Part shown: in pieces, positions 24,607 to 64,000 of the stretch
How the letters are laid out: the number at the start of each line of letters is the position of its first letter
Position numbering within the stretch: position 1 is the first letter of the stretch
Assembly (NCBI GenBank): GCA_023634235.1
Contig: JAMKCF010000001.1
Span: 4,467,140-4,531,139, forward strand
Source: Pisaster brevispinus
Taxonomy: Eukaryota; Echinodermata; Asteroidea; Forcipulatida; Asteriidae
Direction: 5' to 3'
DNA: 64,000 nucleotides
The notes under the pieces: generated by a model
The model's database searches: none
What the model saw: the letters and a program-made list of their open reading frames with translations, nothing else
Told to the model about the DNA's origin: nothing
Program-made: the position numbers and the translations under genes

Positions 24607-26023
24607 CTACGGATTTTTTTCAGAAACCTGAGTGTCTAATGTCTCGTTAGATTTGTGCTTTCTCATTTCGATCTTCGGTGCATGCTTCTTTTTGTTGCTC
24701 TGTGCAGTAATTTTAGAGTAGAATGTGTAGAGATACGGGTTTAGGGAAGAATTTATTGGGAGGATGAAGACAACAATCCAGGCATACATATGAGGACCGA
24801 TCTCCACAATACCAGCCTGGGATAGAATCCCCATAATGATCACGGGCATCCAACATGCGAAGTCAGTACCGACTATAAGAGCCATTTTCACCGCCATCTT
24901 AATTTCCCTCTGTCGGTGAGCCGTTACCTTCACCAGCTTAGACGAGCGTTTTACCTTCACGAAGATTGCTACGTAGCAGCTCAACACAATGATAAAACAC
25001 AACAAGTTGACGCCAAGAAACAAGACGATTGAGTAGATCCAGGCCGGTTCTTTTGTTTGGGGTACCGGTATAGCCACAGTACCTGAACCAAATACGCTAC
25101 TGATGGAGTCCATCACAATTTTATAAGAAGAAACCTTAGTTGTCAGGGGGAGACCAATGCACACATCAGACAGCCCGTATACATTGGATTCACCACCAAC
25201 ACTGCCACCACCGATACCACTAACGACACCAACACCACCAAAACCACCACCATCAAAACTACCACCTTCACCACCACCAATACCACCACCACCACCACCA
25301 TCAATGCCACCAAAACCGCCACCATCAAAACCACCGACAACACTGCCACCAACGCCACCACCACCAAAACCACCACCACCACCACCACCATCAAAACCAT
25401 CAGCACTATCACCAAAACTACCATCACCAAAACCACCAACACCACCACCACTGAAGATGGTCGGGATAATACTAATACATGCAGCTGCTAACCACATTAC
25501 GAACACAATAACTTTGGTTATCTTTCCTCTGATAGTAACCCGGCTGAAGGGGAACACGATGCTTAAAAAGCAGTCCACACTGATTAAGGTAACAAAAAAT
25601 ACCGATGCTTCACTCGACATCACTGATACTGCCCCTGCAATCTTGCAAACCACACTAGACCGCCATTGCTTTGCAATATTTGAATAATTCTTTCCTAACT
25701 TGATATCAGCGATAGCAATAATCAACATATACACCCCCATCATGAAGTCAGATATAGCTAAATTAAGAACCAAGAATGAATGCGTCTCGTTCTCACGTAT
25801 TTCTTTGTCACGTCTACATCTCCAGATGATTACCAGGAAGTTGCCGATGAGGGCGCTCAACCCAAGAATCCACAAGGAAGCGCGAAGTGGATCGTTGCGC
25901 ATCAGACTGCCGCAGATGTTGAGTGGTGGTTCCAACTCCGTTGTTTTACATTTAGAGTAGTCAAATGCTTGAGATGGTACTTCTGTATCAAATCTACAGC
26001 ACACATGGTAGTCACTGACGTAT
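24607..26023 (-). CDS. 7TM exon (last exon) of a GRL101-like LDLa/CUB/LRR receptor
   Basis: Begins at acceptor tttcatttcag (phase 2) and ends in TAG. Numbering from the codon for the VCC motif's Val at 26004 (465 residues to the stop): a Cys-rich hinge (CCRF, C19, C31) joins LRRs to the membrane; TM1 about 43-63 (N55), TM2 76-98 (NLAISD), C120 at the top of TM3, SVDCF at 142-146 where a DRY/DRF-type motif belongs, TM4 162-183, a glycine-rich loop 2 insertion about 186-272, the conserved loop 2 cysteine C282, TM5 322-347, TM6 371-395 (FACWMP), TM7 408-427 (NPYLY). The tail is short and basic. Hinge and TM features fit the LGR/RXFP/GRL101 group of rhodopsin-like receptors acting at the plasma membrane; with the upstream exons the best match is GRL101. 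Arg to Cys at the DRY position could impair G-protein coupling. Confidence 0.9.
25190..25452 (-). repeat. In-frame CCACCA-type repeat coding a glycine-rich loop
   Basis: Plus strand shows 'accaccaccaccaccacc' mixed with 'aaaacc' and 'atcaaa'; on the coding strand this is GGT/GGA/GGC codons interspersed with Val, Phe, Asp and Ser. It expands extracellular loop 2 of the receptor by about 90 residues without breaking the frame. Confidence 0.9.
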
Positions 26024-26705
26024 CTGAAATGAAAGTTGAATATTAATTTAAGCGTATGTTTGCACTCAAAGTTTTTCTCAACAAAAATATTAGGCCCTAT
26101 GTTCTTTGAGTTTTACTGGAGTGTATTAGTTTATACATTTTGTATGTAGCATCGCCGACAGCACTGTGCTCTCCGACCAAGTAACCAGAGGTATTACACA
26201 AGGTTCCACTAGTTACTGCCACCCGGTAAGCCAAACAGTTTAATTGGCAGAGGAGTTGATTTGAAAACTACATAACCCAAGCACAGACTGTCAGCAAGAC
26301 ATCTGGAAGCCTGCTACAAAGAACAGACGCCAACGATATAGATACATTTCCGATATAGATACATTTTATTTATATTTTGTGTTTGTTTTGTTCTTGTCTC
26401 CATAATGTACCGAACAATGTGAGCACACCCCCCCAAAAACAAATTTCAAACAATAGGTGTTGCCCGAACACCTAATAATAGTTTGTCAAGAAGAAAGTTA
26501 CGAAAGAAAAGATACAATTTAGGAGTTAGCTGAAGCTTACAACTTGCAAAAACTAAGGTCATCACACGCCTACGAGTAAAAAAAATTAATAAATAAAAAA
26601 TAAAATACAAACAACACAGAAGTAGAGCAAGAAATTCACAAACACTCTCAAAATGACACAATACTGAGCAGAATGAAAATATGAGGACTAAAGTAACAGA
26701 CTTAC
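26024..26705. other. Intron between the last LRR-like exon and the 7TM exon
   Basis: No coding signal. It contains one solitary 'aggtgtt...aacacct' hairpin (26455-26473). Confidence 0.5.
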
Positions 26706-26795
26706 AATTTTTCCAAACTGTGCAGATCTTTAAGAGCCCCCGATTCGATGACCGGTGGAGATCCATAAATGGCTCGTTCACTTCCGATTAAAAAA
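26706..26795 (-). CDS. Probable last LRR exon of the GRL101-like receptor
   Basis: In the correct phase the minus strand encodes ...VIESGALKDLHSLEKL, which fits the second half of an LRR (I..GA...L..L..L), and ends at donor TT|gtaagt in phase 2. Joined to the 7TM exon it gives EKL-YVSDYHVCC, the expected LRR-to-hinge transition. The acceptor is uncertain: 'ttcgttatag' gives 90 nt (this entry), 'aatcggaag' gives 75 nt (end 26780). The first half of the repeat is unusual and lacks the Asn-ladder residue. Confidence 0.55.
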
Positions 26796-26879
26796 CTATA
26801 ACGAAAATGAAATTTATTAACGTTGCGTTATTTTCAAGAAGATTTAGTGCAAATTAAACAATAAAATACCAGTATTTAG

Positions 26880-26985
26880 TTATAGAGTTAAACGCCCATC
26901 GTATGTTAGTAGGGGAGATGGCCTTAGCTTTCGATCCGTACGAGATCTTTTTCAGAGGCATAAACAAAAACTAGAAATTCAGTTT
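26880..26985. repeat. Interspersed repeat fragment shared with 28985-29060
   Basis: 'agtaggggagatggccttag', 'ctttcgatcc' and 'ggcataaacaaaaact' match the block at about 28989-29058. It belongs to the repeat family into which the LINE inserted. Confidence 0.55.
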
Positions 26986-27450
26986 TTGTGACATCACAAA
27001 AACAGGGTGTTCGGTAGACATGTCGAAATTAGCATAGCTGGTGAAAAGTAAAAAGAAAATTTGGTAAACATGTATTTGTATGAAATATAATTATACGAGT
27101 TATTTGTGATTTTAAATATTTGCATTTTTGAAACAGAAACCTTGATCGAGCCTAAATTGAAAACTGATGACGTCATGATGACGTTATTGCGTATTTCTTA
27201 TCCATACATTGAGATTTATAAGTTTGTGGTAAGTGTTTAACTTTTGAACTTGCAACAGGTTTTTAGCAAAACGGACTATTTTTTAATAACTTGTCACGAG
27301 AGGGTGTTGTTGAAGATAATTACGTCAATACTCTATTAATTGGAAGGCCAAGCGTCAAACTTTATTTCATACCAAGAGAGCATGTCAAAATTCCAGATCA
27401 TATTGTTTGCAGACCTTAAAACGAGGCCTGGGAATATTTGTTTTCCTTAG

Positions 27451-28700
27451 AACTTCCGGTTTCAACCGGAAGTAAAGGCTTTATGGGGTCACCCTTTGTA
27501 TGTGATTTGTATAACTCGGCCGGAACTTTTTTATGGTGCAAGTACCTTACATGTAGCATTTATGGTTCTCCGATTATGATTTTTAAAAATATTAAACGTT
27601 TATTTATTGTTATGACGTCATCGATGACGTCATCGGACCGAAACAGTTTGGGTACCATATACATACTACGATCTATATACATAGTAAGTTTCAAGACAAA
27701 ACCCTTCTTGGTTTATGAGAAATGAACGTTTGAAATCTGAATTTTAAACTTCCGGTTTCAACCGGAAGTAAAGGTGTTATGGGGTCACCCTTTGAATGTG
27801 ATTTGTATAACTCGGCCGGAGCTTTTTTTGGTGCAACTTACATGTAGCATTTATGGTTCTCCGATTATGAATTTTTTAAATATTAAACGTTTTTTTTATT
27901 GTTACGACGTCATCGATGACGTCATCGGACCGAAACATTTTGGGTGTCATATACATACTACGATCTATATACATAGTAAGTTTCAAGACAAAACCCTTCT
28001 TGGTTTATGAGATATGAACGTTTAAAATCTGAATTTTGAACTTCCTGTTTCTACCGGAAGCAAAGGTCATATGGTGTCACATTGTGTATGTGACTTGCAT
28101 AATTTGGCAAGAGCTTTATTATTGTGCAAGTATCTTACATGTAGCATTTGTGATTCTCAAATTAGGATCTTTTTAAATATTAAACGTTGATTTATTGTTT
28201 TGACGTCATCGATGACATCATCAAACCAAAATTTACACATTTATATTTAAACACAAAGATCTAAATACTTAGTAAGTTTTAAGTCTCGAACATTTTTAGT
28301 TTATGAGATATGACGAGTTTTCATTTTGTAAGAAAATTTAACTTCCGGTTTTGACCGGAAGTAAAGCTCACATGGGGTCACACCTAATGAAAGATTTGTA
28401 GGACTGTTCAAGGGACTTCAGATGATATAATGATTAAAGGTGTAGCATCTTTTGTTTATAAGATATAACGTTTCCCTCAAAAAACCTTCAACGTCCGGTT
28501 TCGACCGGAAGTAAAGGTCACATGGGGTCACATTTTGTGTAAGAGTTGTAAAAGGAATGTTGAACTTTCATATGAAGCAAAGTTCTTGTATTTATCATTT
28601 ATGGTTCTCTAGATATGACGATTTACAATATTTCTCGTTATTTTTCATTTTTGATGTTATGACGTCATTGATGACGTCATCATCCCGAAAAGTCTATACG
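27451..28700 (-). repeat. Tandem array, unit about 296 bp, five copies (last two shortened)
   Basis: Units start with 'aacttccggtttcaaccgga' at 27451, 27747, 28039 (tcctgt variant), 28340 and about 28490. Full units contain 'tatggggtcacc', 'taactcggccgga', 'atgtagcattta' and the palindrome 'tgacgtcatcgatgacgtca'. Copies 1 and 2 are very similar; later copies diverge. The ORFs across it are repeats of the same frame and not genes. Confidence 0.9.
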
Positions 28701-28782
28701 AGTTATACTTTTTCCGAAATCCTGCCGAGAAAGTACGGTGGGAAGAAGAAGACACGGAAAAAAAACCCAGTACAATAACAAT

Positions 28783-29155
28783 AGGTTTTCGGCTGTTAGC
28801 TGAACACCTAACAAACACAAACATTTCCATTTGTAGCAAAAAGAGGAGCAAAGGAGTAAGGGAGAGTATCCAGAAAAAAGCGGGGAAATACATGTATAGC
28901 CAATCAATGTTATAAGTTTACAAACAATTGGGGGGCTAAGAACCAATCAGAGTAAAGTAGTGAGGACGAAGTTATAATTATATACAGAAACTAGTAGAGG
29001 AGATGACCTTCTAGCTTTCTATCCAAACCGGACCTTCGCCAGAATCATAAACAAGCACAAAAAAAAAATATAGTTACAGCAAAAAGAGGAGCAAAGAATT
29101 ATGCGAAAGCATCCAGAAAAAACCCAGGAAATTTATAGCCGATCAAAGTTTTGAT
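28783..29155. repeat. Interspersed repeat containing a hairpin; left part of the LINE target
   Basis: Begins with the hairpin 'aggttttcggctgttagctg' ... 'aacacct' (28783-28809). Two sub-copies of 'aaaaagaggagcaaag', 'catccagaaaaaa.cc' and 'atagcc.atcaa' lie at 28838-28915 and 29080-29150. The first continues into 'tttacaaacaat.g' and 'gaaccaatcagagtaaa'; the second is cut at about 29155 and its continuation reappears at 37345. Confidence 0.7.
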
Positions 29156-29554
29156 TTTAAATGGTTTATTAAAAAACAAAGACCATCGCAGCCGAAGGCT
29201 GAATTGCAGTCTAATTACAAAGAGATAAAATAACCAAAATTACAAAGAGTTAAAAATACAAGAAAACAAACAAGTATAAAACTCCAATATTAAAAAACAA
29301 GATTTACAAGAATGATTGAAACACTGTAGTGGTCCAAGAAGTTTCAAACTTGAAACCTAAAAAGAACATTATTAATCTATTCACCAGCAGGACAAAAACT
29401 AAAATAACCCAAAACAGAAGACAGAATGTTCATTGAAAAAATGCCGACTAAAAGTGGAAATGCACTGTTTTTGAGACGCTCAGTCTTACAACCCCACGAA
29501 ATTAGCATATTGGGACCACAGGTTTATTATTAGGCGCAAAATTTCCAGGAAAAT
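29156..29554 (-). mobile_element. 3' portion of the CR1-type LINE (separated by the DIRS insertion)
   Basis: On the minus strand a frame encodes GCKTERLKNSAFP, close to the C-terminal 'CRTERFKNSAIP' region of CR1/L2-type polyproteins, ending in TAG at 29377-29379. An AT-rich 3' UTR follows, ending near 'tttttaataaaccat'. Together with 34307-37344 it forms one LINE split by the DIRS element. Confidence 0.7.
29377..29554 (-). pseudogene. LINE reverse transcriptase, extreme C-terminus
   Basis: About 45 codons after the DIRS junction. It contains the conserved basic/aromatic KTERLKNSAFP segment and ends at a normal stop. It is cut off from the rest of the RT by 4.75 kb of DIRS sequence. Confidence 0.6.
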
Positions 29555-29700
29555 TTCTCGATATTCACCTCGAGACCACGTGAGATGGAGCGGCGTAACC
29601 AGTGAGTTCAGTTCAGTGTGCTGCTGAACCTTGTGACGTTCAGACGTGTTAAATTTCGCGGCTCTGCATACACGTATTATTATTATTATAGTACATTATC

Positions 29701-31378
29701 ATGGCGGGGCACCCTGAACTGCAATGTGAACTAACCCCGAGTACCGGAGAGGAGGATTTTGACGACCTTTTCCCACCGAATGTCCCGGGTAAGTGTAGTC
29801 CCGGGACTCAAGGTGTTCCGAGGCAGTTTTGGATGTACCAGAACCTGTCCCCGACAGGGAATATCGTACGAAAAATGGTAGTACGATCAGTAAGATGGGA
29901 AAATTTCCCATGAAGAGAAAACAAGGACATACTATTGAGTATGAATTTCTGATATGGTTGGGCTGCAGACGGATAATTCCGAGCCCATATCCTGTAATAA
30001 TTCTTCGGAATTACTGGCTGTTGGCCAGATGATGAAAGGAGCCATGGAGTCTGTCCAGGCCAGTATTACTAAGTCATTTCAAGACATGACACATTTAATA
30101 ATGACTGTCAAAGAAAACTCTGCCGAAGAGAATGTTTCCGATCGCAAAACGAAAAACAAGCGACAAAAAGTAGACGGTGGGGAATGTTCAAACTCTCCCT
30201 CTCCGGTCTATGACCATGAGTCAAGTCTCGCAAAATTGCTGGAGGAGACTGACATACCAAGTACTAGTGCTGAGCAACCGGATAATTCCGAACAAATTGA
30301 CTTTCTAGCAAGTATTGCACAACATTTTCAGTTGGAAGAGCAGACCTCTGATGATGTACATCCCCAATTAGCTTCCATTGCTAACTCTGTTTTTCGTGAA
30401 AAACTGTCAGATGACAAACTGAAGGACATTTTCAAGTCCTACAACAGACCAAAAAATTGTGAGAACGTTGTGCCCACAAAAGTGAATAAATTAATATGGG
30501 ACAACATGAGAGATAACACTCGATCACAGGACGTAAAATTTCAAAAAATTCAGACGTCCCTTGTAAAATCAATTGTTGCTGTGCTCCAATTGTCAAATCA
30601 AGTAATAACAGCCTCCAAAAATAAGGAGCTTGATAAGCTGGATGTGAAATCTCTGTTGCGTACTGCAACGGATTCAGTTGGGTTAATGGCTAATGCCAAT
30701 TACCAATTAAACATGCGAAGAAGAGAAATGATAAAGCATGATATAAACCCAAATTTCCGGCATTTATGTGATACTGCCGTACAATTTACGGAGCAGCTTT
30801 TTGGTGACGACTTGCCAAAGCAAGTAAAAGATATGTCCGAGGTAAATAAGGTGGGACTGAAGTTGGCAGGTCCACGGGGCGGTTATCGAGGCCGTTCATC
30901 AGGTCACCGAGGATTCTATCAACGTGGTGGTCATAGCAATCAGAACCGAGGTACTAGAGCTAGTGGACAGTTTTTTTTTATACCCACGTCACAGTCGACA
31001 CCCGTACCATACGGGCAAGTCAGAAACGAGCAAAAGCAAGTAGAGGAACCCTCTGTTCACGAAGTAAGTCTACCGGACTGTAAATCATACCAAAGACCAA
31101 TAAAAACCAATATTGCAGCTCGGTTGAAATATTTTATCCCGGCATGGAGGAAAATTACCTCAGACAGGAAAATTATAGACATAGTGTCAAATTGCCATAT
31201 TGAATTTGAGGAAGGAAGCTACCCTCAACAATATTTTGCACCCACTGAAATTAACTTCCCTGATAAGGAGAAGAATGTTTTGGACGCTGAATTAAAAGTG
31301 CTCCTCAAAAAGGGTGTAATAGAATACTCTGCCCATGAAAAGGGCGAATTTATTTCTACAATCTTTACGAGGCCAAAA
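29701..31378 (+). pseudogene. DIRS ORF1 (gag-like), frameshifted near the start
   Basis: The main open frame (from 29954) encodes a hydrophilic protein with a KTKNKRQKV basic stretch, a helical middle and an RGG-type RNA-binding region (GGYRGRSSGHRGFYQRGG, about residues 300-320), as in DIRS gag-like proteins. A likely true start at 29701 (MAGHPELQ, then an acidic stretch) is in another frame that stops at 29911, implying an indel between about 29870 and 29990. The 3' end of this frame already contains the start of the RT region (FTRPKK) before a frameshift in an A-run at about 31374-31381. Confidence 0.7.
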
Positions 31379-32580
31379 AAAGGATGGCTCTTATAGAATG
31401 ATTTTTAATTTAAAGAGATTCAACAAATCAGTGGCATATCACCATTTTAAAATGGATACTTTGGCCTCTGCAGTGAGGCTTATGAAACGTGGCTGCTATA
31501 TGGCATCTGTTGACCTTAAGGATGCATATTATTCTGTTCCAATTGCTTTGGCGAAACAATTTATATCAATTTACGTGTCTGCCAAATGGTTTAGCGTTAG
31601 CCCCACGACTATTTACAAAGTTGCTAAAACCTGTGTTTTCAACTTTAAGAAAGCAAGGCTTGATATCTGTGGGTTACATTGATGACTCTTATTTACAAGG
31701 AGACACAAAAGAAGAATGTGCAGACAATGTTGCTCGCACAACAGATTTGCTCACTAATCTCGGCTTTCGGGTTCACGAGGTAAAGTCCGTATTTGAGCCA
31801 GCCCAGCAGTTAACATTTTGGGGCCTTATTCTTGATTCGAACAATATGACAGTTAGACCAACAATGAGCAAGATTGTAAAGGTCCGATCTCAGGTTAAAG
31901 CCATTTTACAAAACAAAGTCACGATACAAGAGGTGGCATCTACCATCGGAATTCTAGTTGCGTGCTTCCAAGGGGTTGAACATGGCCAACTGTTCTATAG
32001 AAGCATCGAACGTAATAAAATCACTGCCTTAGAAAAGAGCAGAGGAGATTACACAGCAAGAATGGTTTTAACAATCGAGTCAAAGGATGAACTAAACTGG
32101 TGGTACAATAACATTGAAGCCAGTTCTAAAAGGATTTCACATGGAGATCCAGATTTAGTTATGCAATCAGATGCATCCAACAAAGGGTGGGGTGCAGTCC
32201 ATGGCACATTGTCTGCTGGAGGAAAATGGACAGCCGCTGAATCGCTGCACCACATAAATTATCTTGAATTGTTAGCGGCATTCATGGCTTTACAAACATT
32301 TTGTGCTCAACGAAAAAATGTTCACATTGGCATCCAAATTGATAACACCACCGCTGTAGCGTATATCAATGCCATGGGCGGCATAAAATCCAAATTATGC
32401 AACGAGATTGCTCAACAAATTTGGTTCTGGTGTTTACACCGAAACGTTTGGCTTTCTGCCTCTTTCCTCCCTGGAGCACAAAACGTTGCTGCTGATAGAA
32501 TGTCTAGACTGTTTAATGACAGGACAGAGTGGATGCTAAAGCCTGATATTTTGTATTGCATACAATCCCTTTGGGCGTGA
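31379..32580 (+). pseudogene. DIRS reverse transcriptase / RNase H, frameshifted
   Basis: RT motifs: MIFNLKRFN, SVDLKDAYYSVP (catalytic Asp), CLPNGLALAPR, GYIDDSYLQ (YIDD catalytic pair) and LTFWGLILD. RNase H motifs: MQSDASNKGWG (first Asp), NYLELLAAF (Glu), IQIDNTTAVAY (Asp) and NVAADRMSR (last Asp). Two breaks are visible: an extra A near 31378, and a shift with apparent loss of several codons near 31545, between DLKDAYYSVPIAL and the LYQFTCLPNG block. A third shift near 32570 separates it from the IDLFASR region. The enzyme would copy the element's RNA; this copy cannot make an intact protein. Confidence 0.9.
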
Positions 32581-33914
32581 TGACAATTGACTTATTTGCG
32601 TCTCGATTAAATAAACAAATAGAGCCCTATGTTTCATGGAGGCCAGACCCAGGTGCTACTTTTGTAGATGCCTTTTCGTTGTCATGGAAAACTTATTATT
32701 TTTATGCCTTTCCCCCATTTAGCATGATTGCAAAATGTCTGCAGAAAATCGAGCAGGACGGAGCAGAGGGAGTCTTAGTAATTCCCCTTTGGACAACACA
32801 GTCATGGTTTCCAAAGACGATGCACATGCTTGTGGACACTCCACTAATGTTGCCAAAACATCGAGACCTGCTGGTTCTACCAAGCAGCCATACGCTCCAC
32901 CCTCTACGGAACACAATCCGACTAGTGGCATGTCGATTATCCGGCATTCCTTCCAAATGCAACATATTTCTGAGCAAGCAACCGACATCCTCATGGCATC
33001 CATGGCGTTCAGGGACCCACAAGCAGTATTCCTCATACCTCAAGAGATGGCTTCAGTTCTGTAGTCAGAGACAAATTAATCCAATTTGCCCACCTGTAGT
33101 TAAAGTCTTAGACTTTCTAACAGAACTGTATAACTCTGGGTTAAGTTATAGTGCTATTAATACAGCACGCTCAGCTCTATCTGCCACAGTTATTACGGAA
33201 CATGGCATTAACTTGGGTAGCCATCCTTTAATTTGTAGATTCCTACGAGGTGTTTTTCAGTTAAGACCTTCTCTGACCAAATATTCAGAGATTTGGGATG
33301 TAGATATCGTTCTGCAACATTGTAAGAAACTATATCCCATTGAGGACTTAGACTTAAAAAGTCTAACTTTTAAGCTTACCGCGCTTATTGTTTTAGTTTC
33401 AGCACAGAGGTGTCAAACTATTTATTTGATGGACTTAAGAAACAAGAAAGTAAATGATTCAGTGTATACCTTTTTCTTTCATAAGTTGAAACAAAGTCGG
33501 CCAGGTTTGCCGACTTGTACGGTTGTATTAAAACCTTACTTGCCAGATGCAAGTCTATGTGTTGTGAAAGCATTAGAAGAGTACTTAAGACGAACCAAAC
33601 CTCTGAGAGGAGAGGAAGCTCAGTTATTTATTTCCTATGCTAAACCTCACAACAAAATAACCAAAGAAACCATAAGTAAATGGATCAAAAAGGTTATGTT
33701 AAATGCAGGTATAGATATTTCATTATTTAAGCCTCACAGTACAAGAGCAGCCGCAGTGTCTGCTGCAAAGAGAGCTTCTGTTAGTATAACTGACATATTG
33801 AAAACAGCAGGTTGGAGCTCAAGTAGCACGTTTGGCAAGTTCTACGACAAACCGATAGCCGAAACAAGTAATGATTTTGCGCACAGTATTCTCAAACGAC
33901 AGAGTACGATCTAA
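32556..33914 (+). CDS. DIRS tyrosine recombinase with N-terminal linker region
   Basis: An open frame of 452 codons. The first about 130 residues (IDLFASRLN, SWRPDPGA, YAFPPF) are the linker usually fused to RT/RNase H in DIRS elements, here separated by a frameshift. The rest is a phage-integrase-fold recombinase: an N-terminal core-binding domain (SAINTARSALSA), then the catalytic residues: Arg in SAQRCQT, His and Arg in KPHSTRAAA, GWSSSSTF and the nucleophile Tyr in FYDKP. All catalytic positions look intact. It would integrate circular cDNA in the nucleus. Expression as a separate ORF is uncertain. Confidence 0.88.
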   Translation: MHTIPLGVMTIDLFASRLNKQIEPYVSWRPDPGATFVDAFSLSWKTYYFYAFPPFSMIAKCLQKIEQDGAEGVLVIPLWTTQSWFPKTMHMLVDTPLMLPKHRDLLVLPSSHTLHPLRNTIRLVACRLSGIPSKCNIFLSKQPTSSWHPWRSGTHKQYSSYLKRWLQFCSQRQINPICPPVVKVLDFLTELYNSGLSYSAINTARSALSATVITEHGINLGSHPLICRFLRGVFQLRPSLTKYSEIWDVDIVLQHCKKLYPIEDLDLKSLTFKLTALIVLVSAQRCQTIYLMDLRNKKVNDSVYTFFFHKLKQSRPGLPTCTVVLKPYLPDASLCVVKALEEYLRRTKPLRGEEAQLFISYAKPHNKITKETISKWIKKVMLNAGIDISLFKPHSTRAAAVSAAKRASVSITDILKTAGWSSSSTFGKFYDKPIAETSNDFAHSILKRQSTI

Positions 33915-34306: not shown

Positions 34307-35545
34307 ATGAAGGGTCTCTAGGTGCAGGTAATCCAAGGCATCTGTGTATCGCGAATAATCCCTTCCGAGGATGATCCTACAAGCTCGCTTCTGAATACGC
34401 TCGATGGACTCATTCTGTTGCTGCGTAGTTCCTCCTGCTCATACTGGAGTAGCATACTCCATGACAGGCCGGACAATGCTTTGGTATACTGTTAGGAGGT
34501 CATGATGTGGAAGGCCGTGGTGTTTCAAGCGTCGAAAGATGTACAGCCGACTGTCGGCCTTACTTATCATTTTTGTCACGTGAGTGTCCCACTTTAAGCC
34601 AGCCTGAATGAAAATTCCCAATAGCTTCACTGTCTGTTGTTGCTGAAGGTCATAATCTTCCAAATTAATGATATTTGGGGCCGGCAGATTTCTTGCAAAA
34701 CAAATGTCCATTGACATGCATTTTTTCGTATTAAGTAGCATTCCATTGGCCTCAGTCCACATATGCAAGTTCTCAAAGACATCTTGAAGGTTGGATGGGG
34801 TGTCAGTTTTCCGGCATTCTACCAAGGTCAAATCATCGACGTATTTGTAAGCAAATGTGTCGTTCTGGAGAGCATGGTGATCAGAATTGATGGCGTCGTT
34901 GATCATAGCCGTAAAAACGACTGGGCCAAGTTTCGTGCCTTGTGGTACGCCACTCGTCACAGTATGAGCGTCTGAAAGCATACCCTTGTATTTCACCTGT
35001 TGCTGTCGATTGCTGAGAAAATCTGCAGTCCAGGCTACCAGTGAGGATGGAACCCCCATACTGAGCAGTTTCTTGATTGCGATACCATGATCCACTCTAT
35101 CAAAGGCTTTGGAGAAGTCTGTCAGCAGAATAGTTGAAAGGGATTTTGTTATATCTGCGTGACTGTACAAAGTATTCATGACGTCAACAAGACAGTGAGT
35201 GGTCGAAACTCCGCGAAGATTCCCGAACTGATTCTTGTCCAACTGGTCTCGCATAGCGCACGCTGCCTCGCGGGCTACGAAATGCTCGGCAGTTTTCGCG
35301 AGGTGGTCAGTCAGTGCAATAGGGCGTAGGTTGTCAATCGTAGCAGGTGATGATTTGGGGAGTGGAACAACATAAGCTCGTTTCCATTCTGCTGGTACTA
35401 CTTGGTCGCGATACGAGACGTTAATGATATGGCTGAGTGGATTTGCAAGTTCGTACGAGAAAAGTTTGATGAACCTTGCTGATATACCATCTGGTCCGCA
35501 TGACTTTCTCAGCTTGATGTGACATAGTTGAGAGTGGACTTCATG
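34307..35545 (-). pseudogene. LINE reverse transcriptase domain
   Basis: Motifs in order: KSCGPDGISARF, NLRPIALTDHLAK, LLTDFSKAFDRVDH (first catalytic Asp), SGVPQGTKLGP, YKYVDDLTLV (catalytic Asp pair), and a thumb region with SKADSRLYIFRRLK. The frame stays open from about 35540 to a stop at 34438, after which RT-like coding (YLHLETLH) resumes up to the DIRS junction. A one-base frameshift near 35535-35550 separates it from the endonuclease frame. Confidence 0.88.
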
Positions 35546-37161
35546 GGGATTGGCAAATATGCTGGCAAGGATACCCTGTCAAGAGCTGAAATGTTCCCAC
35601 CAATGGTAGCAAAGTGACCACTGATGGCGTCTGCAATAGCCTTGCAATCATGAGGGTCAATGATAGGAACAGCGATATTACTGCTCATGCTTGAACTCTG
35701 GCCAGACATGACCCGGATGTGTCTGTACCATTGACTGGGTGACGTTTTTTTGAGTTTCTCGACTTTGTTGATGTAGTTGTTTTTCTTGGCTTTTCGAATT
35801 TCCCTTATCACCTTGTTTCTTAGTTGACGCCAGAGAAGAGTGTATTTCTGGTTAAAGGCTTTCTGTCTCTTAGAGATGAGTGACTTGATCAAAGGCGTTA
35901 TCCACTGCTTGTCGTTTTGATGTAGTTTTACAGCTCGATGTGGAAAGAACTGATTAATGGTTTGTTTGATAGTTTTGTAGAAGGCAGAACATTTGGTCTG
36001 GGTATCAGAAGCTCCGTACACCTCGGGCCATGTGTGATTAGAGATCCAGCGCCCATATTCTCGTATACCACTATCTGGCATGGGACGTACAAGATATTTC
36101 CGAAGTAAGTTATCTTGCTTAATCGGAACATTTGGTTGCAAACAAACACAATTGTGATCGCTGAGACCTATGGGCGGTAGAATAGAACTATTACGGTAAT
36201 GCTGGGACACATTAGTGAAAACTTTGTCCAAGATGACGTCACAGCGGGTTGGTTGATCAACAACCTGGACGAATGCTGTAGAGAATATGTTGTCGATGTC
36301 TAAGTGGTTAAAGTCACCAACAACAAATATCCCAGTGTCAGGTTGTCGACTCAGTATGTAGTCTATCGTAGAACAGACATGATCAATCAATTTAGGGGCA
36401 AGCGGGCTTCGAGGAGGGTAGTATATCACGCCGATCACAATTCTGCAGGCATTGCGGGCAAGCCGATGTGGGTGCAGAGAAACCCACATAGCCTCAATGT
36501 CTTCAGGAACATACACGTCACTAAGTAGCATTGCATTCATTTCCTCGCGGGTATACAATGCCACACCACCTCCTCGTCGATCAAGTAGTGGTCTGGAAAA
36601 AAGTTCGTAGCCTTTTATACTATTCAGGCCAGCTGGCTGGTCACTAGTGAACCATGTCTCTGTTACTGCAGCGACGTCCACATTGTTTTTCTCCAAAACT
36701 ATGCTAAGCTCCTCATTTTTATTGTTCAAAGAGCGGGGATTGCACAGTAACAATGATGGCATTTGAGGCTGTTTTGTAACACTTCTTGTTGTTATAGGCA
36801 CAATGTTTCCTTTATGACTAACTGGCTGAAATCCTGAGGGTTTAGAGGTGACTACTCTTGGTCTAATGATAGTTTGTATAAGTCGCCTTTTCTTTGTTCC
36901 ACCTCGAGAACCTCGTTTTATAGTATTGGCAATTTTCATTTCCTTCAGCAATATCCAAAGATCAGAACATATTTTGATTGTTGCTGTTTCCCTCTGTAAA
37001 CTATATAGTGTTTGTAACGAATAATATAGTCTTGAAGACATACCAAGGAGGCACTGCCACATTAAGGTATTGCGTTCTGCAGTTAAATTACATTCCGTGA
37101 CGTACTGTGTGTAACTGTAGGGGCCAAACAACTGCTCCGAATGATGAAGAATTTTAGGCAA
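35509..37161 (-). pseudogene. LINE AP-like endonuclease with N-terminal extension
   Basis: A 550-codon frame. After a basic linker (KRGSRGGTKKRR) the endonuclease shows LLCNPRSLNNK, VAAVTETW (catalytic Glu), RRGGGVALY, VIYYPPRS, FVVGDFNH (Asp/Asn) and GLSDHN (Asp/His): the exonuclease-endonuclease-phosphatase signature. The last about 10 codons before its stop are out of frame with the RT that should follow, owing to a single-base indel. It would nick DNA for target-primed reverse transcription; this copy is defective. Confidence 0.88.
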
Positions 37162-37344
37162 CAGATTTACTCACTATTGTTAATAGCATCAAGTGGAGAG
37201 TATCCCATTCGTATCCAGAGCAACCAGAAGGCGTATGAACAAGATAAAAACACCAAAAGGATGACTGTAGACAAGTAACAAATCTAGAAATTGGCAACAA
37301 ATAACAGCACTAAAATTGCAAGAGCAGCTTGCGAAAACAGCGTT

Positions 37345-40433: not shown

Positions 40434-40505
40434 AGGTCCGTCAAATTGCTCAATGCGTTGAAGGCTCCACTCTCTATGGAAGCCAATGGATTATCATTAA
40501 CCAAC
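40434..40505 (-). CDS. LRR exon 4, GRL101-like receptor
   Basis: Exactly 72 nt, phase 2 in and out, acceptor ttcaatag and donor ct|gtaagt. It encodes one 24-residue repeat, LVNDNPLASIESGAF then NALSNLTDL, matching L..N.L..I..GAF..L..L..L. Part of the extracellular ligand-binding solenoid. Confidence 0.85.
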
Positions 40506-42314: not shown

Positions 42315-42386
42315 AATGTTCTCAAGTTGACAAGATCCTCGAAGATATCACTCCAAAACTTCCAAATGTTATTCTGTGAGATGTCC
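42315..42386 (-). CDS. LRR exon 3, GRL101-like receptor
   Basis: 72 nt in phase 2, acceptor ttataaatccag, donor tt|gtaagc. It encodes DISQNNIWKFWSDIF and EDLVNLRTL. The repeat has the Asn at the expected position and hydrophobic spacing; tryptophans in the variable face are unusual. Confidence 0.88.
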
Positions 42387-43082: not shown

Positions 43083-43154
43083 AGGGAATTAAGATTAAAA
43101 AGTTCAGAAAATGTTCCAGCTTCGATGTCATCTAAGCTGTTGTTTGTCAGCACT
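43083..43154 (-). CDS. LRR exon 2, GRL101-like receptor
   Basis: 72 nt in phase 2, acceptor ttatccaactag, donor ct|gtaagt. Encodes VLTNNSLDDIEAGTF and SELFNLNSL, a textbook LRR of the receptor subtype. Confidence 0.9.
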
Positions 43155-47195: not shown

Positions 47196-47267
47196 AGTGT
47201 TTTCAAAAATGAGAAACGTTTGAAGATTCCTGTATTCAGTCGAATTATGTTTTCATTTGCAAGTTTG
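47196..47267 (-). CDS. LRR exon 1, GRL101-like receptor
   Basis: 72 nt in phase 2, acceptor ttttcttgcag, donor ct|gtaagt. Encodes KLANENIIRLNTGIF and KRFSFLKTL. First full repeat after the N-cap. Confidence 0.87.
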
Positions 47268-47404
47268 CTGCAAGAAAATAAATCATAAACAATTGTGAAA
47301 AGATTGATGATAACAAATAAATCAATAACAAATAAATGAATAAATTAATAGAAATAAGAAAACCCCCCCAAAAAACAAACAATAGCAAGAGCGGAAGCAA
47401 GGGC

Positions 47405-47860
<456 letters not shown>

Positions 47861-47927
47861 TTTTACCTTCTCAATAAGACATTTTACTGTACGGAAATGA
47901 ATTGTACCGATTTGTCTGTGTACTTAC

Positions 47928-48045
47928 AGATGCGTCGTTTTCACGACAATGTGACCTACAGTCTCCTGATTCCAACCAGAGAGGCACTGGACGATATAGT
48001 CATCATCAGAGACGACGCAAGAACACATTGTCGGACATCGGTTTT
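47928..48045 (-). CDS. LRR N-terminal cap (LRRNT) exon, GRL101-like receptor
   Basis: 118 nt with acceptor ttacaaag (phase 1) and donor ct|gtaagt (phase 2). Encodes NRCPTMCSCV, then DDDYIVQC and VGHIVVKTTHL: the CxxxCxCx(n)C cysteine pattern of an LRR N-cap followed by the first beta strand. It is the phase adaptor between the phase-1 LDLa/CUB exons and the phase-2 LRR exons. Confidence 0.85.
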
Positions 48046-48631: not shown

Positions 48632-48754
48632 CACATGCTGCTGGTGATTCATCATCTTTATATGGACAGTCAAAGTTGCCATCACAGACTAAGGACATGT
48701 GAACACATGCTAACGAATCCTGACAGGGAAAAGACTCCGGGCAGGTAACTTTGT
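48632..48754 (-). CDS. LDLa exon 6 (nearest the LRRs)
   Basis: 123 nt, phase 1-1, acceptor cgttcctag, donor tgtg|gtatgt. Encodes CPESFPCQDSLACV, VCDGNFDCPYKDDES and a final C: six cysteines plus the acidic calcium cage of an LDL-receptor class A module. Confidence 0.87.
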
Positions 48755-50128: not shown

Positions 50129-50257
50129 CACAATCAATCTCGTCTGCTCCACTTATTTGGCAATCTATAAAACCATCGCATCTTCCACTTGGTTTCAAGC
50201 AAGAGCCGTCTCCACAGTCGAAGACATCAGGATCAGGACATGATATAATACCAGTAC
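50129..50257 (-). CDS. LDLa exon 5
   Basis: 129 nt, phase 1-1, acceptor tttttctaag, donor tgtg|gtgagg. Encodes CPDPDVFDCGDGSCL, RCDGFIDCQISGADE and IDC. All six cysteines and the calcium-binding acidic residues are present. Confidence 0.87.
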
Positions 50258-51693: not shown

Positions 51694-52047
51694 CGTTGCT
51701 GCTGTAAAGCTCTAGTAGAAACCCTCGTCCACTGATATATGAATCACTTCTAAAGTTGAATAAAACTTCCTGCGATGATTCAAATGTTATAGATATCAGT
51801 TTCTGGATAGATCCAGTCAGCTGAAATGACACTTTGTCTCCGTAGAGATTAATGCCTTGAAGGGTTGCTGAGTCTTTCCCGTGTTCTGTCGAAAAATCAC
51901 TTATTCCCACGTGTAACTTTGCCGTAAAATTCGGAGCAACGACCACCCAGTTGCAGTCGAGAGATGGTGGATAGTTGGTCGGATAGCCTGTTAAAGTGAA
52001 GTTAATTGGTTTGCTTTCAACGGGAATGTTAGTGCCACCACAAGCAC
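51694..52047 (-). CDS. CUB exon 4
   Basis: 354 nt, phase 1-1, acceptor tctgtttcag, donor aacg|gtaaat. Encodes ACGGTNI at the start, GYPTNYPPSLDCNWVVVAP, an internal SDFSTEHGKDSA and GRGFLLELY at the end: the CGG, YP.NYP...C.W and GF.l.y landmarks of a CUB domain. Only the first disulphide pair is present. Confidence 0.88.
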
Positions 52048-52697: not shown

Positions 52698-52832
52698 CAC
52701 AATCATCTTCATCCACAGATGAGTCATCTGCACCGAATCGGCAGTCACGATATCCATCACACCTGCCATCAGAACGAACACAAGTCCCGTCTCTACAATC
52801 AAAGCCATGCCCAAGGAAGCAGGAGGATGTAT
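52698..52832 (-). CDS. LDLa exon 4
   Basis: 135 nt, phase 1-1, acceptor ctctataatag, donor tgtg|gtaagg. Encodes SSCFLGHGFDCRDGTCV, RCDGYRDCRFGADDSS and VDEDDC. Well-conserved LDLa with a slightly long calcium loop. Confidence 0.9.
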
Positions 52833-54221: not shown

Positions 54222-54224
54222 GGT

Positions 54225-55767: not shown

Positions 55768-55852
55768 TATATTATTTCACTTACCGTTATTATTATCATT
55801 AGTATCAACATTATTATTGTTATTATTATTACATTACTACTGGTGGTACTAC

Positions 55853-56221
55853 CATTGGTGCCCCGGAAAAGCATTTCAAACTCCAATGTTGGCGGCATCC
55901 ATATCCAGTTATCATTAATAGCTCCGTATTTTTTCATATGGACATACATTGTCTTCGATGCGGTAACTAAAAATGAGTACGGTGAAGTCCATTCAGAGAA
56001 AAGTATCACAGGGTGTCCACCACTCAAGGTGCCAATAAACTGATACTCAGCGTCGTTCTGATAGTCGATTCGGGGTAAGAACACCACAAACACATATAAC
56101 CAGTCTGGAGCCCTGATTTCCCAATGACATTCTATTGGTCCTGAAAAGAGCTGTGGAAAACCTGGTGACTCAAGATAGACTGGAGTTGTTCCAACTGAAA
56201 TGATTGGTGAGCCACAATAAT
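55853..56221 (-). CDS. CUB exon 3
   Basis: 369 nt, phase 1-1, acceptor ttctatttcag, donor aatg|gtagta. Encodes DYCGSPIISVG, LESPGFPQLFSGPIECHWEI, FVVFLPRIDYQND and a C-terminal strand ending FRGTNG. C.G, the SPGFP and C.W landmarks mark a CUB fold. The donor has the less common gtagta. Confidence 0.82.
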
Positions 56222-56895: not shown

Positions 56896-57006
56896 CGCAG
56901 TCTAGCTCATCCTCCCCATTGAGGCAATCCTCAATCAGATTACACACCTTATCAGTCTCCAGGCAGAGATACGCAGATGAGCATGCGTACTCATCATGAC
57001 TGCATT
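56896..57006 (-). CDS. LDLa exon 3
   Basis: 111 nt, phase 1-1, acceptor gacgttgcag, donor tgcg|gtaagt. Encodes CSHDEYACSSAYLCL, VCNLIEDCLNGEDE and LDC. Six cysteines; 'CNLIEDC' replaces the usual CDG..DC, so one calcium ligand may be altered. Confidence 0.87.
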
Positions 57007-57074
57007 CTGCAACGTCAATCATGAATATCACCCATTAAAAACCACCAACAACTTATACTACTTCTACAGTACTT

Positions 57075-57720
57075 TTACAATAATAACTGCAACAGTAACA
57101 ACACCAACACCATTTTAAACACCTACACCAACACAGACACAAAAACCTTCACCTACACATACACTAACATATACACAATCACCTACACGTTCACCAACAG
57201 ATACCCTAACACCTACACCTACACCAAGACGAACACCAACACATACACCTTAACCGACACCAACACCTACACATACACCAACACCAACACATAGAGATAA
57301 ACCTACATCCGCACTCACACCAACCCCAACATCAGCACCAAATTTACACCAACACCAACACCTATACCTATATCATCACCAATACTCACTCTTAAACCAA
57401 CACCAGCACCAAACCAATACCAACACCAATACTTACAACTATAACAACACCAGTACTAGCACCAACAGGAACACCAGCATCATCAATACCAACACCAACA
57501 TCAACACCATTACCCACTCCTACACCAACACCATGACCACCACAAATACCAACACCAACACAGACACCTACACCAACACCAACACCTACACCAACACTTA
57601 CATCTACACCAACACCTACACCTACACTCGCATCAATACCAAAACCTTAACCAACAACAGCACCGACACCAACACCAACATAAACACCAACACCAACAAC
57701 GGAAACATCACAAACACAGT
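57075..57720. repeat. Hexanucleotide ACCAAC/ACCTAC microsatellite
   Basis: About 640 bp of imperfect 'accaac', 'acctac' and 'accaat' words in the intron between CUB exon 2 and LDLa exon 3. ORFs across it are artefacts. Confidence 0.95.
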
Positions 57721-58090
57721 AAAACGAAACACACACGTAACAAAAACCAAAAGAGAAATCAAGCCCACAAATCAAACACCAAAACACCCCCAAACATTAA
57801 CGGTTAACAAGAAAACAAAATAAAGAGAAAACCAATGTTGTTTTATTTTATTTTTTAACCTATACAGCGATGTGTGTCAAGCACTGTCTCCTCAGTACTT
57901 CTTCGATTCCAGTGGAAAAAACAACAATCCACAGGCATTTTTATTCGTGCGGGTTCTATGTTCTCACATGAAACAGTACATGTCACACATCGATATTCGA
58001 GTAAAACACAACCAGTATTGACTATTCCACTTGTAAATTTGACATCAATTCAAACAAACTTAATCAACTTCTGCAACATGTAAGGCCTAC
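57721..58090. other. Intron, right of the microsatellite
   Basis: No coding or repeat signal beyond AT-richness. Confidence 0.4.
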
Positions 58091-58546
58091 CTTCAAAGTC
58101 ATATTTTGCTGTAACCTGAACACTCAACAATCTTAAAAAAGAGCTTGCTGCTTTACTTTTTGCAATAATCGTCATGCTTGAATCTATAGAGAACAAAAAA
58201 GTTGTCCTGAAACGATCAGAATCTGAATCTGAAACGAAAGCTGGAGTTGTATTGACGAGATCATGTCCATTTATCACTATCAGCTCCATATTATCTACGA
58301 AAAATTCTTTCAGTTCAATAAGAAATATTGTTCCATTTGGTCCATTTAATATCCATATGCAGCTCAGATTTTCGACACGCCTTTCGTAAACGATAGCAAA
58401 GTTGCTAAAGGCTGGAAGAGGAGTCCAACGATACTGATTTCCAGGATAAATTCCAAAGATGTCCGATTCTGCGAAGCTCGTCTGTTCAACATGTATGGTG
58501 ATTGGTGCATCTACAGTCAACCAGATCTCCGTCTTGCCACAAGTAT
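58091..58546 (-). CDS. CUB exon 2
   Basis: 456 nt, phase 1-1, acceptor cattcgatgcag, donor gaag|gtaggc. Encodes TCGKTEIWLTV, a long acidic/aromatic segment, NLSCIWILNGPNGTIFLI and a strand-rich C-terminal half. The CG ... C.W..NGPNG pattern is CUB-like and matches the exon at 63721 (NCIW..HAPNGT), so the two are likely paralogous modules. It is longer than a typical 110-residue CUB. Confidence 0.78.
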
Positions 58547-60875: not shown

Positions 60876-60986
60876 CACACTTCATTTCGTCTGTATAATC
60901 GGCGCAGTCAAAATGACCGTCACATATTTGGCTTGGGAGTATACACTCGCCAGAAGTGCACCTTACATTCAACGAATCGCATTCAC
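60876..60986 (-). CDS. LDLa exon 2
   Basis: 111 nt, phase 1-1, acceptor tatttctttag, donor tgtg|gtaagt. Encodes CDSLNVRCTSGECI, ICDGHFDCADYTDE and MKC: a canonical LDLa. Confidence 0.9.
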
Positions 60987-61039
60987 CTAAAGAAATAGAA
61001 TAAAAATAATAACAATAAATACATTAATAAATAGTGTTG

Positions 61040-61800
61040 CTCCTACTTGGCGTACATTGCAAAACTCTGTTGACCAACACGGGAACAAAAAACAGTTTCC
61101 TCAACCGTCAATGACAATAATTATGACTATTCTTGACTCCTCTAAGAAGTTGCGCTCAGCAATCCCTGACCAACCCATGGTTGCAATCCGCTGCCCTCAA
61201 AACTTAGAAGACATCCTAGTCAGGGACAAAATCCCCAAGGTACAGGTCAAACACCACCCGTAGCAGAAATACAGGGTTGAGACAGCGGTACCCGTTCAAG
61301 ATGTAAAAACGTGTTTGTACATCAACCCTGCACTTACTCTTCAGGAAATGGGCACTACTAAAGTTTGCAGTAGGATTTTGCCTTTTCCCCCATAATTCCG
61401 CCCAGGAAACTTTTGGGCAGTCCACCATCAAACCATGAAGAAACATTATTATGGCAGGTTTTGTTTGCACAGGGTAGAGTTCATTTACCTTGAAAATCTC
61501 ACTACGAATCCTGCGGTCGGGAGGGCTGCCATCTGTTTTTACACAAAAATCTTGGCAAAGTCTCAAGGGTTGTGAAGAGTCATAGCACTGGCTCTTCTTA
61601 CAATACCAAGACTGACTCCCAATGTAGCACACCTAATGTAGCACACCCAATGTGGTCTATGTTATATCATGTAAGAGATGTGGACACTGACACTGATGTA
61701 GGAGAGACTAAGACTAAACTCAGTCTTTGCATTCCGAACCATGTCTCTTCTATTCCACAAAGACCAAGAAACTGTACCCCGTCTCCATCCTCTTTAACAG
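61040..61800 (+). pseudogene. Decayed Penelope-like retroelement fragment (C-terminal RT and GIY-YIG trace)
   Basis: One frame gives SAIPDQPMVAIRCPQNLEDILVR, split here as SAIPDQPMVAI and RCPQNLEDILVR, resembling the '...P..AFRRP.NL.D.LVR' segment before the linker of Penelope-like elements. Some 450 bp downstream another frame gives MLYHVRD then DVGETKTKLSL and PNHVSSI, resembling a GIY-YIG 'YVGETK..L..R...H.SSI'. Frames differ and contain stops, so it is dead. Sits in the intron between LDLa exons 1 and 2. Confidence 0.45.
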
Positions 61801-61997
61801 CCCCTAACCGCAGCATCAAAAATGTTTCACAGCGGATCTTGCTGCAACACCATCCGTGTTTATTACGTGGAGCTTTCCCCTGAATTCTTAATTTGAGATT
61901 TGCGAAGTACCGGGGCTTATCTGAAAAAATACCTATTAATTAGAATAAGCCCAGGTGTTTCAGCAGAATTGTGTACAACTTTGTCACTGTTACCTAC

Positions 61998-62111
61998 CAC
62001 AGCCCAATTCGTCCTCACTGAAAATGCAATCCCTAGCTCCGTCACAAATTTTAGAGGTGGAATCGAGGCACTCTACTCCATTCAAACAGGTGTACTCCCC
62101 TTCTTCGCAAT
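61998..62111 (-). CDS. LDLa exon 1
   Basis: 114 nt, phase 1-1, acceptor attcttcttcag, donor tgtg|gtaggt. Encodes CEEGEYTCLNGVECL, ICDGARDCIFSEDE and LGC. Complete LDLa with all six cysteines. Confidence 0.9.
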
Positions 62112-63720
62112 CTGAAGAAGAATGTTAGCTACAGTTTATTTATAAGAAGTAATAGTCTTGTTTTCTTGAAGATCAACTTGATCGAAATTTACATTATTGT
62201 TTTGTTGTTGTAGAAAGGTAAACGGGTGAGTAATGATTACATACAAATGAGTGGAACTCAACACAAACTAATAGAAAAAACACACAGTTTGATCAGTGGT
62301 ACGCTGGGCAAAAACGCCGAGTTTCACGAAAAGCTCTCAAGCGCCTAAGAATCAAAACAGCATTGTGACATCGTACTGCGGGCTCGTTGTGTTGTTTTTG
62401 CACAACCGTGGATTATTACATGCCAAACATTAAACAAAAATCTCTGATACGAAAAATAAAAATTATCAAAATGTCGGTAAGCGGTGGTTCGTGAAAATAT
62501 TACCGTGTTCATGAAGAAAAGGTTTTTGCGTCAGCTCAAGTGACCGGGGAGTTCTCCAGAAAGGAACAAAACACAAATTTGGAGGGGCATGCTAACGTTC
62601 ACGGAGCTAATTCAATGGTTCGAATGACAGGGAGAAAAACCAAATCTCATGATATAGCATTATTCCAGCCAGCAAATCTGATGCCTTTTTGAGACCCTTG
62701 TTTTTTTTTCAAGATTGAATTTGTGACACCAGTACATTATTGATTTCGAGTTCTTGCAATAATTCAATCCGGGCGCAAAAAATTGATTATTTTGAGCGTT
62801 CGAACTGATTCTGAGCGAAATGATATTGACAGCACAAATCGATTTTTTCTTCAGGTTTTGGAAAATTTTATTTCTTGATCTCGTAATAATTCTTTTGAGA
62901 TTTCGAAATGATTTCGAGCTAAAAGATTTTTGAGATCCCAAAGGTATTTCGCAATAATTTATTTTGAGCTTTAGCAATCATTTATTTTGAGTTCTCGCAA
63001 TAATTTATTTCAACACAAAATAAATTATTTGAGCGTTCAATTGTTTTTAAAATGAAATAATTCTGAACAAAATGATTTGATGAGATTTTTCGTTTTTCCC
63101 ACCATATTTTTTGTCCCTTTCGGTGCTCCGTAGTAAAAACCATTATCTGTGAACAACTTAACATTAATTTAAGCTTGTACTTTAATTAATTTGTAGGTGA
63201 TCCCTTCATTATGTAAACCTCTCAATGAACATTTTGACAACTTTTAATCTTTTCGACTATCGGATTCCTGAGAAAGTGAAAGTTAAAAATAGCCTCGGGA
63301 CTCTTTATGGTGCTTTGGAATCCACGGAAAGCAAAGTTTCTCGGCATGATACAAACTTACAGACTGAGGAATCCTGAGAAATAGGAAACGATCCCCCCAA
63401 AAAACATTCAGTAAATGCACACAAACAATCTTCACAAGGCCGAGTATGACTTATTGGTTCCAGACATGCTAGGGCGCCACCAACGGCCAGAAAGGCTAGT
63501 TCAAAAAGTTGAAAAAGGGAGCTAGTGTTTTTTTGATCAAATTTCAAGGCAGAAAACTTCAAACTTACGACCAATAATAACTAAACACATAACAAACAAC
63601 AAGAAAGTGTCAATTTTTTAAAAGGAATTTCGTTCAAAGTGATCCTTAGCTGAACATAAACAAAAGACAAGAGTCAACTCAACCTAAATATTTAAAGTAA
63701 AATGTTTCAATTTTTTTTAC
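62112..63720. other. Intron
   Basis: Around 62730-63060 a degenerate motif ('gagttctcgcaataattta', 'attttgagc') recurs at irregular spacing. No exon recognised. Confidence 0.45.
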
Positions 63721-64000
63721 CAACAATCTCGTAAGGCGTCAGAACTATTCTCATGGCATAGAAGTATGCAGATTCCCCAATATTTCCAAGCACTATCGTC
63801 ACTTGGGACTCATGAGAGAGCACAGAGAGTGGAACCTTGGACAATTGTGGGTCCGAGCCTTTGACCAAGATTGGAGATCCGTTGGCTAGATCCTTCCCGT
63901 CGAAAACTTTCAGGAGCATGCCTTCTCCATCGATGTCAAATACTTTAAGTTTCATTTTTGTTCCATTAGGCGCGTGCAATGCCCAGATGCAGTTAATACG
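63721..64000 (-). CDS. CUB exon 1 (partial; continues beyond the window)
   Basis: The open frame reaches the right edge. It encodes INCIWALHAPNGT, a variable middle with DLANGSPILVKGSD, and a final strand MRIVLTPYEIVG, then donor gttg|gtaaaa in phase 1. The NCIW and APNG landmarks match CUB exon 2. The 5' half of the domain and the signal peptide lie outside the window. Confidence 0.8.

Follow-up and report, generated by a model that had tools for sequence, protein, structure and literature searches.

A stretch of 64,000 nucleotides from the 550-Mb genome of the sea star Pisaster brevispinus (GenBank assembly GCA_023634235.1, contig JAMKCF010000001.1, C1:4467140-4531139; hereafter the window) was analyzed for a receptor gene that an earlier note, made from the letters alone, had assembled on the minus strand. 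Coordinates are those of the window, continued past its end where needed. The gene was found to comprise 20 exons spread over 44 kb of the minus strand, from 68551 to 24607, and to encode a predicted product of 1,603 amino acids with a single stop. The product is made up of a signal peptide, five CUB-type and seven LDLa modules, a short capped block of leucine-rich repeats (LRRs) and a seven-transmembrane (7TM) domain of the LGR type, in agreement with the expectation of a very large receptor that comes into view only after its exons are joined.

Seventeen of the exons lie in the window. Sixteen had been proposed before, and all of these were recovered in place with compatible phases; the seventeenth, absent from the earlier note, encodes the LRR C-terminal cap. 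The gene starts 4.55 kb past the window end, and three exons are wholly outside: those for the signal peptide (68551-68482; L009:4551-4482), CUB-A (66815-66453) and LDLa-B (65832-65719). The first 170 bases of the CUB-D exon (64170-63721) are also outside, in L009, leaving 63721..64000 in the window. From there the exons run through LDLa-E (61998..62111), LDLa-F (60876..60986), the D-like module CUB-G (58091..58546), LDLa-H (56896..57006), CUB-I (55853..56221, with alternative phase-1 donors possible at 55850, 55841 and 55838), LDLa-J (52698..52832), CUB-K (51694..52047), LDLa-L (50129..50257) and LDLa-M (48632..48754). Thus, the in-window order is CUB, LDLa, LDLa, CUB, LDLa, CUB, LDLa, CUB, LDLa, LDLa: the previously claimed four CUBs (D, G, I, K) and six LDLas (E, F, H, J, L, M) are present, but they do not alternate strictly. 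The LRR block follows with its N-terminal cap (47928..48045), LRR1 (47196..47267), LRR2 (43083..43154), LRR3 (42315..42386), LRR4 (40434..40505) and the 90-nt C-terminal cap (26706..26795). The last exon (24607..26023) carries the CC hinge, the seven helices, the C-terminal tail and the stop. Every exon has AG/GT borders. The module exons are of phase 1-1, the N-cap exon 1-2 and the LRR exons 2-2, as is the C-cap exon, with each LRR exon exactly 72 nt long.

Joined in phase, the 19 exons after the signal peptide gave 1,580 residues with the sole stop at the end, to which the signal peptide adds 23. Since splice sites were picked to fit the phase, their agreement in phase does not by itself count as independent evidence, and chance is excluded chiefly by comparison with relatives. 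A simple LRR pattern scan could not separate the LRR exons from noise; they were separated by a score built from relatives and by alignment to the Asterias rubens protein. The relative-built score also identified the C-cap exon (22.0, with a runner-up of 16.1 located in a neighbouring LRR gene). The signal-peptide exon was found through the A. rubens signal peptide, scoring 68 versus 28 for the runner-up on the minus strand of 324 kb. Pfam scans of two 10-kb stretches upstream of the window gave nothing above cut-off, even though the first of them contains LDLa-B and CUB-A: short modules are lost in long stop-masked frames. A frameshifted and shortened LDLa-like exon, lying between modules B and D, is a fossil module (L009:957-1044, ca. 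65044-64957 on the window scale).

The identity of the modules was assessed by profile searches of the joined exons, the check proposed in the earlier note, and CUB, LDLa, LRR_8 (3.9e-14) and 7tm_1 (1.5e-27) were all matched. For CUB, the match was confined to the C-terminal half (44.6 bits versus a cut-off of 21.4), with K as the best stretch and two stretches counted at a loose E<=10; module I is 36-37% identical to A. rubens CUBs. The half containing A, D and G showed no Pfam CUB match. LDLa was matched in four plus three stretches, all N-terminal to the LRRs, an arrangement characteristic of type C LGRs. In all seven LDLa modules the six cysteines are kept and a loose calcium-site pattern is matched, with Asn replacing the first Asp in B and H. 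The capped LRR ectodomain, the CC hinge (invariant in 18 sequences) and the rhodopsin-type 7TM together place the protein among the LGRs. Ahead of the 7TM exon, the ectodomain contains 149 Asp/Glu versus 71 Lys/Arg residues and 18 N-glycosylation sequons, an acidic character that suits basic ligands.

Modules D and G were linked to I and K by profile-profile comparison with probabilities of 89-98, where controls reached at most 2.1 against the LRR cap and, for D, at most 0.2 against LDLa. A match of the G profile to LDLa (97-99) was set aside, as the slices from other species probably include a neighbouring LDLa. Because the alignment of CUB-G to full-length proteins was unreliable at its C-terminal end, a profile search of the PDB was used in place of structure prediction. 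A profile of eight D-type modules gave 15 PDB matches up to E 10, the best at 1.3e-4. Fourteen of them are CUB-bearing proteins, namely eight entries of enteropeptidase (including the best), cubilin, MAp19, ADGRG6, spermadhesin and two of PCPE-1, and the fifteenth is flagellin. On these matches and the profile links, D and G were taken as divergent CUBs. Support for CUB-A comes from weak profile similarity (79-95) obtained with three sequences.

Whether this chain forms one polypeptide was judged from its relatives. A search with the joined protein matched 76 proteins. Acanthaster planci LOC110983163 and Patiria miniata LOC119725396 aligned to the entire query (100%) with 38-39% identity, and A. 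rubens LOC117299647 to 70% of it with 62%; others of the 76 also combine CUB, LDLa, LRR and 7tm_1. The order from module A through the 7TM is the same in 13 of 18 aligned relatives (P0123-P0135), one of which is without LRR2. Identity in this alignment ranges from 12 to 55% across the N-terminal modules (with the minimum in G) and from 56 to 81% across the 7TM; in the nearest proteins, from Asterias amurensis and A. rubens, 7TM identity is 81-84%. The full-length collinearity of the Acanthaster and Patiria models argues, at the level of sequence, that CUB, LDLa, LRR and 7TM belong to one polypeptide. The opposite arrangement, in which one gene would encode a secreted CUB/LDLa protein and a second one behind it an LRR-7TM receptor, would be in keeping with the 44-kb span, with the A. 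amurensis models P0001 and P0003, which begin inside or after the LRRs, and with a gene known from DNA and not from a transcript. However, more than 12 database proteins unite the modules with the 7TM, the module order is unchanged among relatives, and the A. rubens protein links to its 7TM a signal peptide whose window counterpart precedes module A and all the others. The earlier note had named a start codon of its own just before the LRR N-cap as a sign of two genes, and no ATG is present upstream of the cap in its open frame. We consider two genes very improbable.

The 7TM domain was compared with solved structures. Its best solved relatives by sequence were RXFP1 (2.3e-36), LHCGR, TSHR and FSHR, and a model built from 18 sequences, of modest confidence (predicted local distance difference test, pLDDT, 59.5), retrieved TSHR, FSHR, RXFP1 and LHCGR as top Foldseek matches in the PDB. 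Sequence and model thus both point to an LGR-type fold. The window copy keeps D2.50, the CWxP and NPxxY motifs and the cysteines joining transmembrane helix 3 (TM3) to extracellular loop 2 (ECL2). Not kept is Arg3.50 of the D/E-R-Y motif: TM3 reads ...LISVDCFLSIVFPF..., with Cys at 3.50, so that DCF replaces DRY or DRF at the end of the helix. In the rhodopsin family, this arginine is conserved in 96% of the receptors (PMC3848830).

To place this substitution, the window copy was aligned with database proteins, including one relative set formed by the best 120 of 369 matches. The alignment kept 178 of 197 sequences (the window and 196 database proteins), with 3 dropped as short and 16 for having no 7TM match; together with three human segments, the 178 (the window and 177 database proteins) made up a set of 181. 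D2.50, C3.25, C6.47, N7.49, P7.50 and Y7.53 are present in 181 of 181, W6.48 in 178, and P6.50 and C45.50 in 179 each. At 3.50, by contrast, 128 sequences have Arg, 46 Cys, 6 Ser and one, human RXFP1, Lys. In a tree built without the 3.50 column, the 52 rows with Cys or Ser at 3.50 fell inside one 54-row clade (support 100), and the 3.50 states required 3 changes versus 45.5 with shuffled labels. Besides the window, the clade contains 36 named rows, all from sea stars (Asterias, Patiria, Acanthaster), and 17 unnamed ones. Among the copies read in the Pisaster genome, 9 of 11 have Cys3.50 (the window copy and L035-L042) and two have Arg3.50 (L043, with DRY, and L044, with DRF). On this sequence evidence, Arg3.50 has been lost across a sea-star clade that retains the other switch residues. 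In the domain lists, 19 of the clade's 53 database rows carry CUB, as do 24 database proteins that fall outside it, indicating that possession of CUB and loss of the arginine were not one event.

The position of the receptor among the LGRs was examined in a tree of 40 rows, a sample outside which Lymnaea GRL101 and known LGR3 and LGR4 rows lie. Twenty-seven chosen echinoderm rows, including the window, formed one clade (100/99) apart from five rows taken as GRL101 references, of which P0158 (Anneissia), P0164 (Patiria) and P0178 (Macrosteles) are named GRL101-like and P0167 (Antedon) and P0177 (Elysia) are not; many rows within the echinoderm clade also bear the database name GRL101-like. In approximately unbiased (AU) tests, an exclusive union of the clade with the insect and mollusc rows (Macrosteles, Elysia) was rejected (p-AU 0.001), and unions with the crinoid rows (p-AU 0.28) or with P0164/P0170 (0.44) were not. 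The kinship with GRL101 suggested in the earlier note thus finds partial support. RXFP1 lies outside that clade, on a very long branch. Type C LGRs are split into C1 and C2 (PMC11863921), and the sequence relationships identify the receptor as an echinoderm-expanded offshoot of the type C LGRs. One GRL101 has been reported per ambulacrarian species studied (PMC8286064), and three Acanthaster relaxin-receptor-like proteins have been placed in echinoderm-specific clades (PMC9759900). Without implying identity with the window gene, a GRL101-like receptor with six LDLa modules was raised in Acanthaster sensory tentacles (PMC6267866) and a GRL101 contig was lower in treated-group sea stars of a wasting-disease study (PMC4503460).

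Across the genome, about 40 places have a related 7TM stretch at >=49% identity (90 of 309 candidates scored), a figure that includes fragments as well as places on short contigs, possibly second copies from the other haplotype. No further 7TM relatives were found within 324 kb around the gene, which is therefore not part of a close tandem array. Close paralogues form arrays elsewhere, at C25:6640735-6816223 and C23:33452-144781, each with several full 7TM exons and fragments.

A trait peculiar to the window copy is an insert of 86 amino acids in ECL2 (25449-25192), encoded within the 7TM exon by a degenerate Gly-rich simple sequence of GGN-type repeats. Its region of the model (residues 192-297) has a pLDDT below 50, as a disordered stretch would. 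No such insert occurs in any of the six full paralogues read, in A. rubens P0121 or in A. amurensis P0001, P0003 and P0122. An intron within the tract was considered and rejected: the only frame-keeping GT..AG choices found begin upstream, inside TM4, so the tract was read as coding. Such a private low-complexity insert, missing from the close paralogues on C25 and C23, is what might be seen in a decaying family copy, as are the lost DRY arginine and the frameshifted fossil LDLa between B and D. However, the 19 joined exons stay in frame and Cys3.50 is common to the relatives. Moreover, the ratio of nonsynonymous to synonymous substitution rates (dN/dS, omega) was 0.29 and 0.28 against the C25 and C23 paralogues, which are 88-89% identical per half, and 0.40 against C1:32369180. 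In a three-way comparison, omega was 0.29 on the window branch (bootstrap 0.18-0.44; 380 codons), 0.22 for L035 and 0.85 for L037. As dS to three of the six paralogues was 2.25 or saturated, omega rests on the three closest. Purifying selection acts on the 7TM of the window copy; it indicates that a receptor with Cys3.50 has been kept and makes a dying gene improbable.

Combined, these results favour, with a probability of about 0.72, a single 20-exon sea-star gene encoding a 1,603-residue CUB/LDLa/LRR receptor with an LGR-type 7TM of altered output, on an echinoderm-expanded branch of the type C LGRs. In such a maintained receptor, G-protein signalling is probably altered, since ordinary activation of G proteins is doubtful once Arg3.50 is lost. 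The CUB/LDLa array would capture a large or polyvalent ligand, probably in a calcium-dependent manner. LDLa-L and LDLa-M, near the membrane, and the LRR block might relay binding to the helices by analogy with RXFP1, in which activation requires the LDLa module and the LRRs are believed to be the first binding site of relaxin (PMC4837482). The 7TM would then answer through weakened or rewired G-protein coupling, most likely by way of arrestin or endocytic signalling or in a co-receptor role.

Several points weigh against this interpretation. The gene model is a prediction from genomic DNA. In A. rubens P0121 (1,122 amino acids), the closest named model with a full ectodomain, the signal peptide is followed by an I-type CUB and modules A to H are missing, which leaves room for isoforms or a shorter form. 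The ECL2 insert, unique to the window copy among the copies read, could impair the receptor. Two clade members (P0010, P0037) have Arg3.50. Finally, human RXFP1 itself has Lys3.50, and a changed DRY motif therefore does not by itself mean changed coupling. A rival reading is that the protein is an ordinary type C LGR of the GRL101 kind with extra modules, in which Cys3.50 is tolerated and G-protein signalling is canonical. The remaining switch residues are intact, human RXFP1 with its EKY was solved in complex with Gs, and CUB-bearing relatives with an intact DRY or DRF exist (e.g. P0137, P0141, P0144, P0146). However, Lys retains a positive charge that Cys and Ser do not, the near-universal Arg3.50 of the rhodopsin family is replaced, and its loss has been maintained through a 54-row clade spanning Asterias, Acanthaster and Patiria. 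Canonical signalling thus has a real chance of being correct, somewhat short of even. The direct signalling through a GPCR (G-protein-coupled receptor) that the earlier note had envisaged found no support if taken as canonical, because the window gene has Cys in place of the DRY arginine and nearly every member of its clade has Cys or Ser there.

Extended to the clade, altered output raises a more speculative and on balance doubtful proposal: that sea stars radiated an entire clade of very large mosaic LGRs which, without the DRY arginine, have been kept by selection as G-protein-independent receptors or co-receptors, coupling a scavenger-like CUB/LDLa array to arrestin or endocytic signalling. 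They would possibly serve chemosensory, coelomic or immune recognition. The gene itself shows that the LRR-GPCR family, familiar from hormone receptors whose ectodomains are compact, was rebuilt in echinoderms into large modular receptors. The loss of Arg3.50 in a maintained clade also offers a natural experiment on class A receptors without this residue, with L043 and L044 as controls from the same genome.

The combination of modules is not unique: at least 43 proteins among the matches listed carry CUB in precomputed domain lists (counted by hand transcription), and predicted relatives are filed in databases as 'uncharacterized' or 'GRL101'. The sea-star models of A. rubens (LOC117299647), A. 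planci (LOC110983163) and P. miniata (LOC119725396) share modules, order and a non-Arg residue at 3.50 with the window gene. They differ from it in lacking the Gly-rich ECL2 insert; in addition, by eye, position G is taken by a D-like CUB in the window copy and by another CUB type in the A. planci model, and the A. rubens model has no modules A to H and contains the I-J pair twice. Some DRY/DRF-intact relatives (P0137, P0138, P0142-P0144) bear the database name 'CUB and sushi domain-containing protein' and are likely misnamed GPCRs. Other related receptors among the matches carry different modules (e.g. P0164, P0167, P0169, the scallop P0174 and P0175), whose Pfam numbers we take to be those of C-type lectin, F5/8C, SRCR and kringle. 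P0174 (Argopecten irradians), P0175 (Lytechinus pictus) and P0169 (Apostichopus japonicus) are of the LGR type with F5/8C and CUB, some also with C-type lectin or kringle. As one carrier is a mollusc, module swapping may be old or repeated.

Among described systems, Lymnaea GRL101 (type C2), compared by description, likewise has several LDLas, then LRRs, then a rhodopsin-like 7TM. The repeats described for it are confined to LDLa and LRR (PMC8286064), whereas the window gene adds CUB modules between, has Cys3.50 and belongs to a separate echinoderm 7TM clade. RXFP1, RXFP2 and the starfish RXFP/LGR3 and LGR4 (type C1) share the LDLa, LRR and 7TM plan, but the starfish C1 receptors have one or two LDLas (PMC11863921) versus seven here, and RXFP1 has EKY where the window gene has DCF. 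CUB modules also occur on adhesion GPCRs (ADGRG6, amphioxus), which belong to another GPCR family; in amphioxus, CUB and LDLa have been reported on them (PMC2246102). In the open PMC literature, with subscription papers and supplements excluded, no description was found of a CUB-bearing LGR or of a non-Arg DRY motif in this family, including the available portions of PMC8286064, PMC11863921, PMC6267866, PMC2246102, PMC12716839, PMC4079206, PMC4503460 and PMC9759900.

Other features of the window were also recorded. The intron between LRR4 and the C-cap contains two mobile elements: a retroelement on the plus strand (29945-33911), with reverse transcriptase and tyrosine-recombinase (Phage_integrase) frames, which we assume to be DIRS-like, and a LINE-type element on the minus strand (34442-37170), with endonuclease and reverse transcriptase frames. 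Long simple-sequence tracts occupy other introns at 47348-47923 and 57056-57820, and the A. amurensis models P0003 and P0122 include similar tracts as exon. A separate single-frame gene on the minus strand (12008-14308), presumably AMIGO/LINGO-like, encodes LRRs and one immunoglobulin domain and has, by eye, a probable signal peptide.

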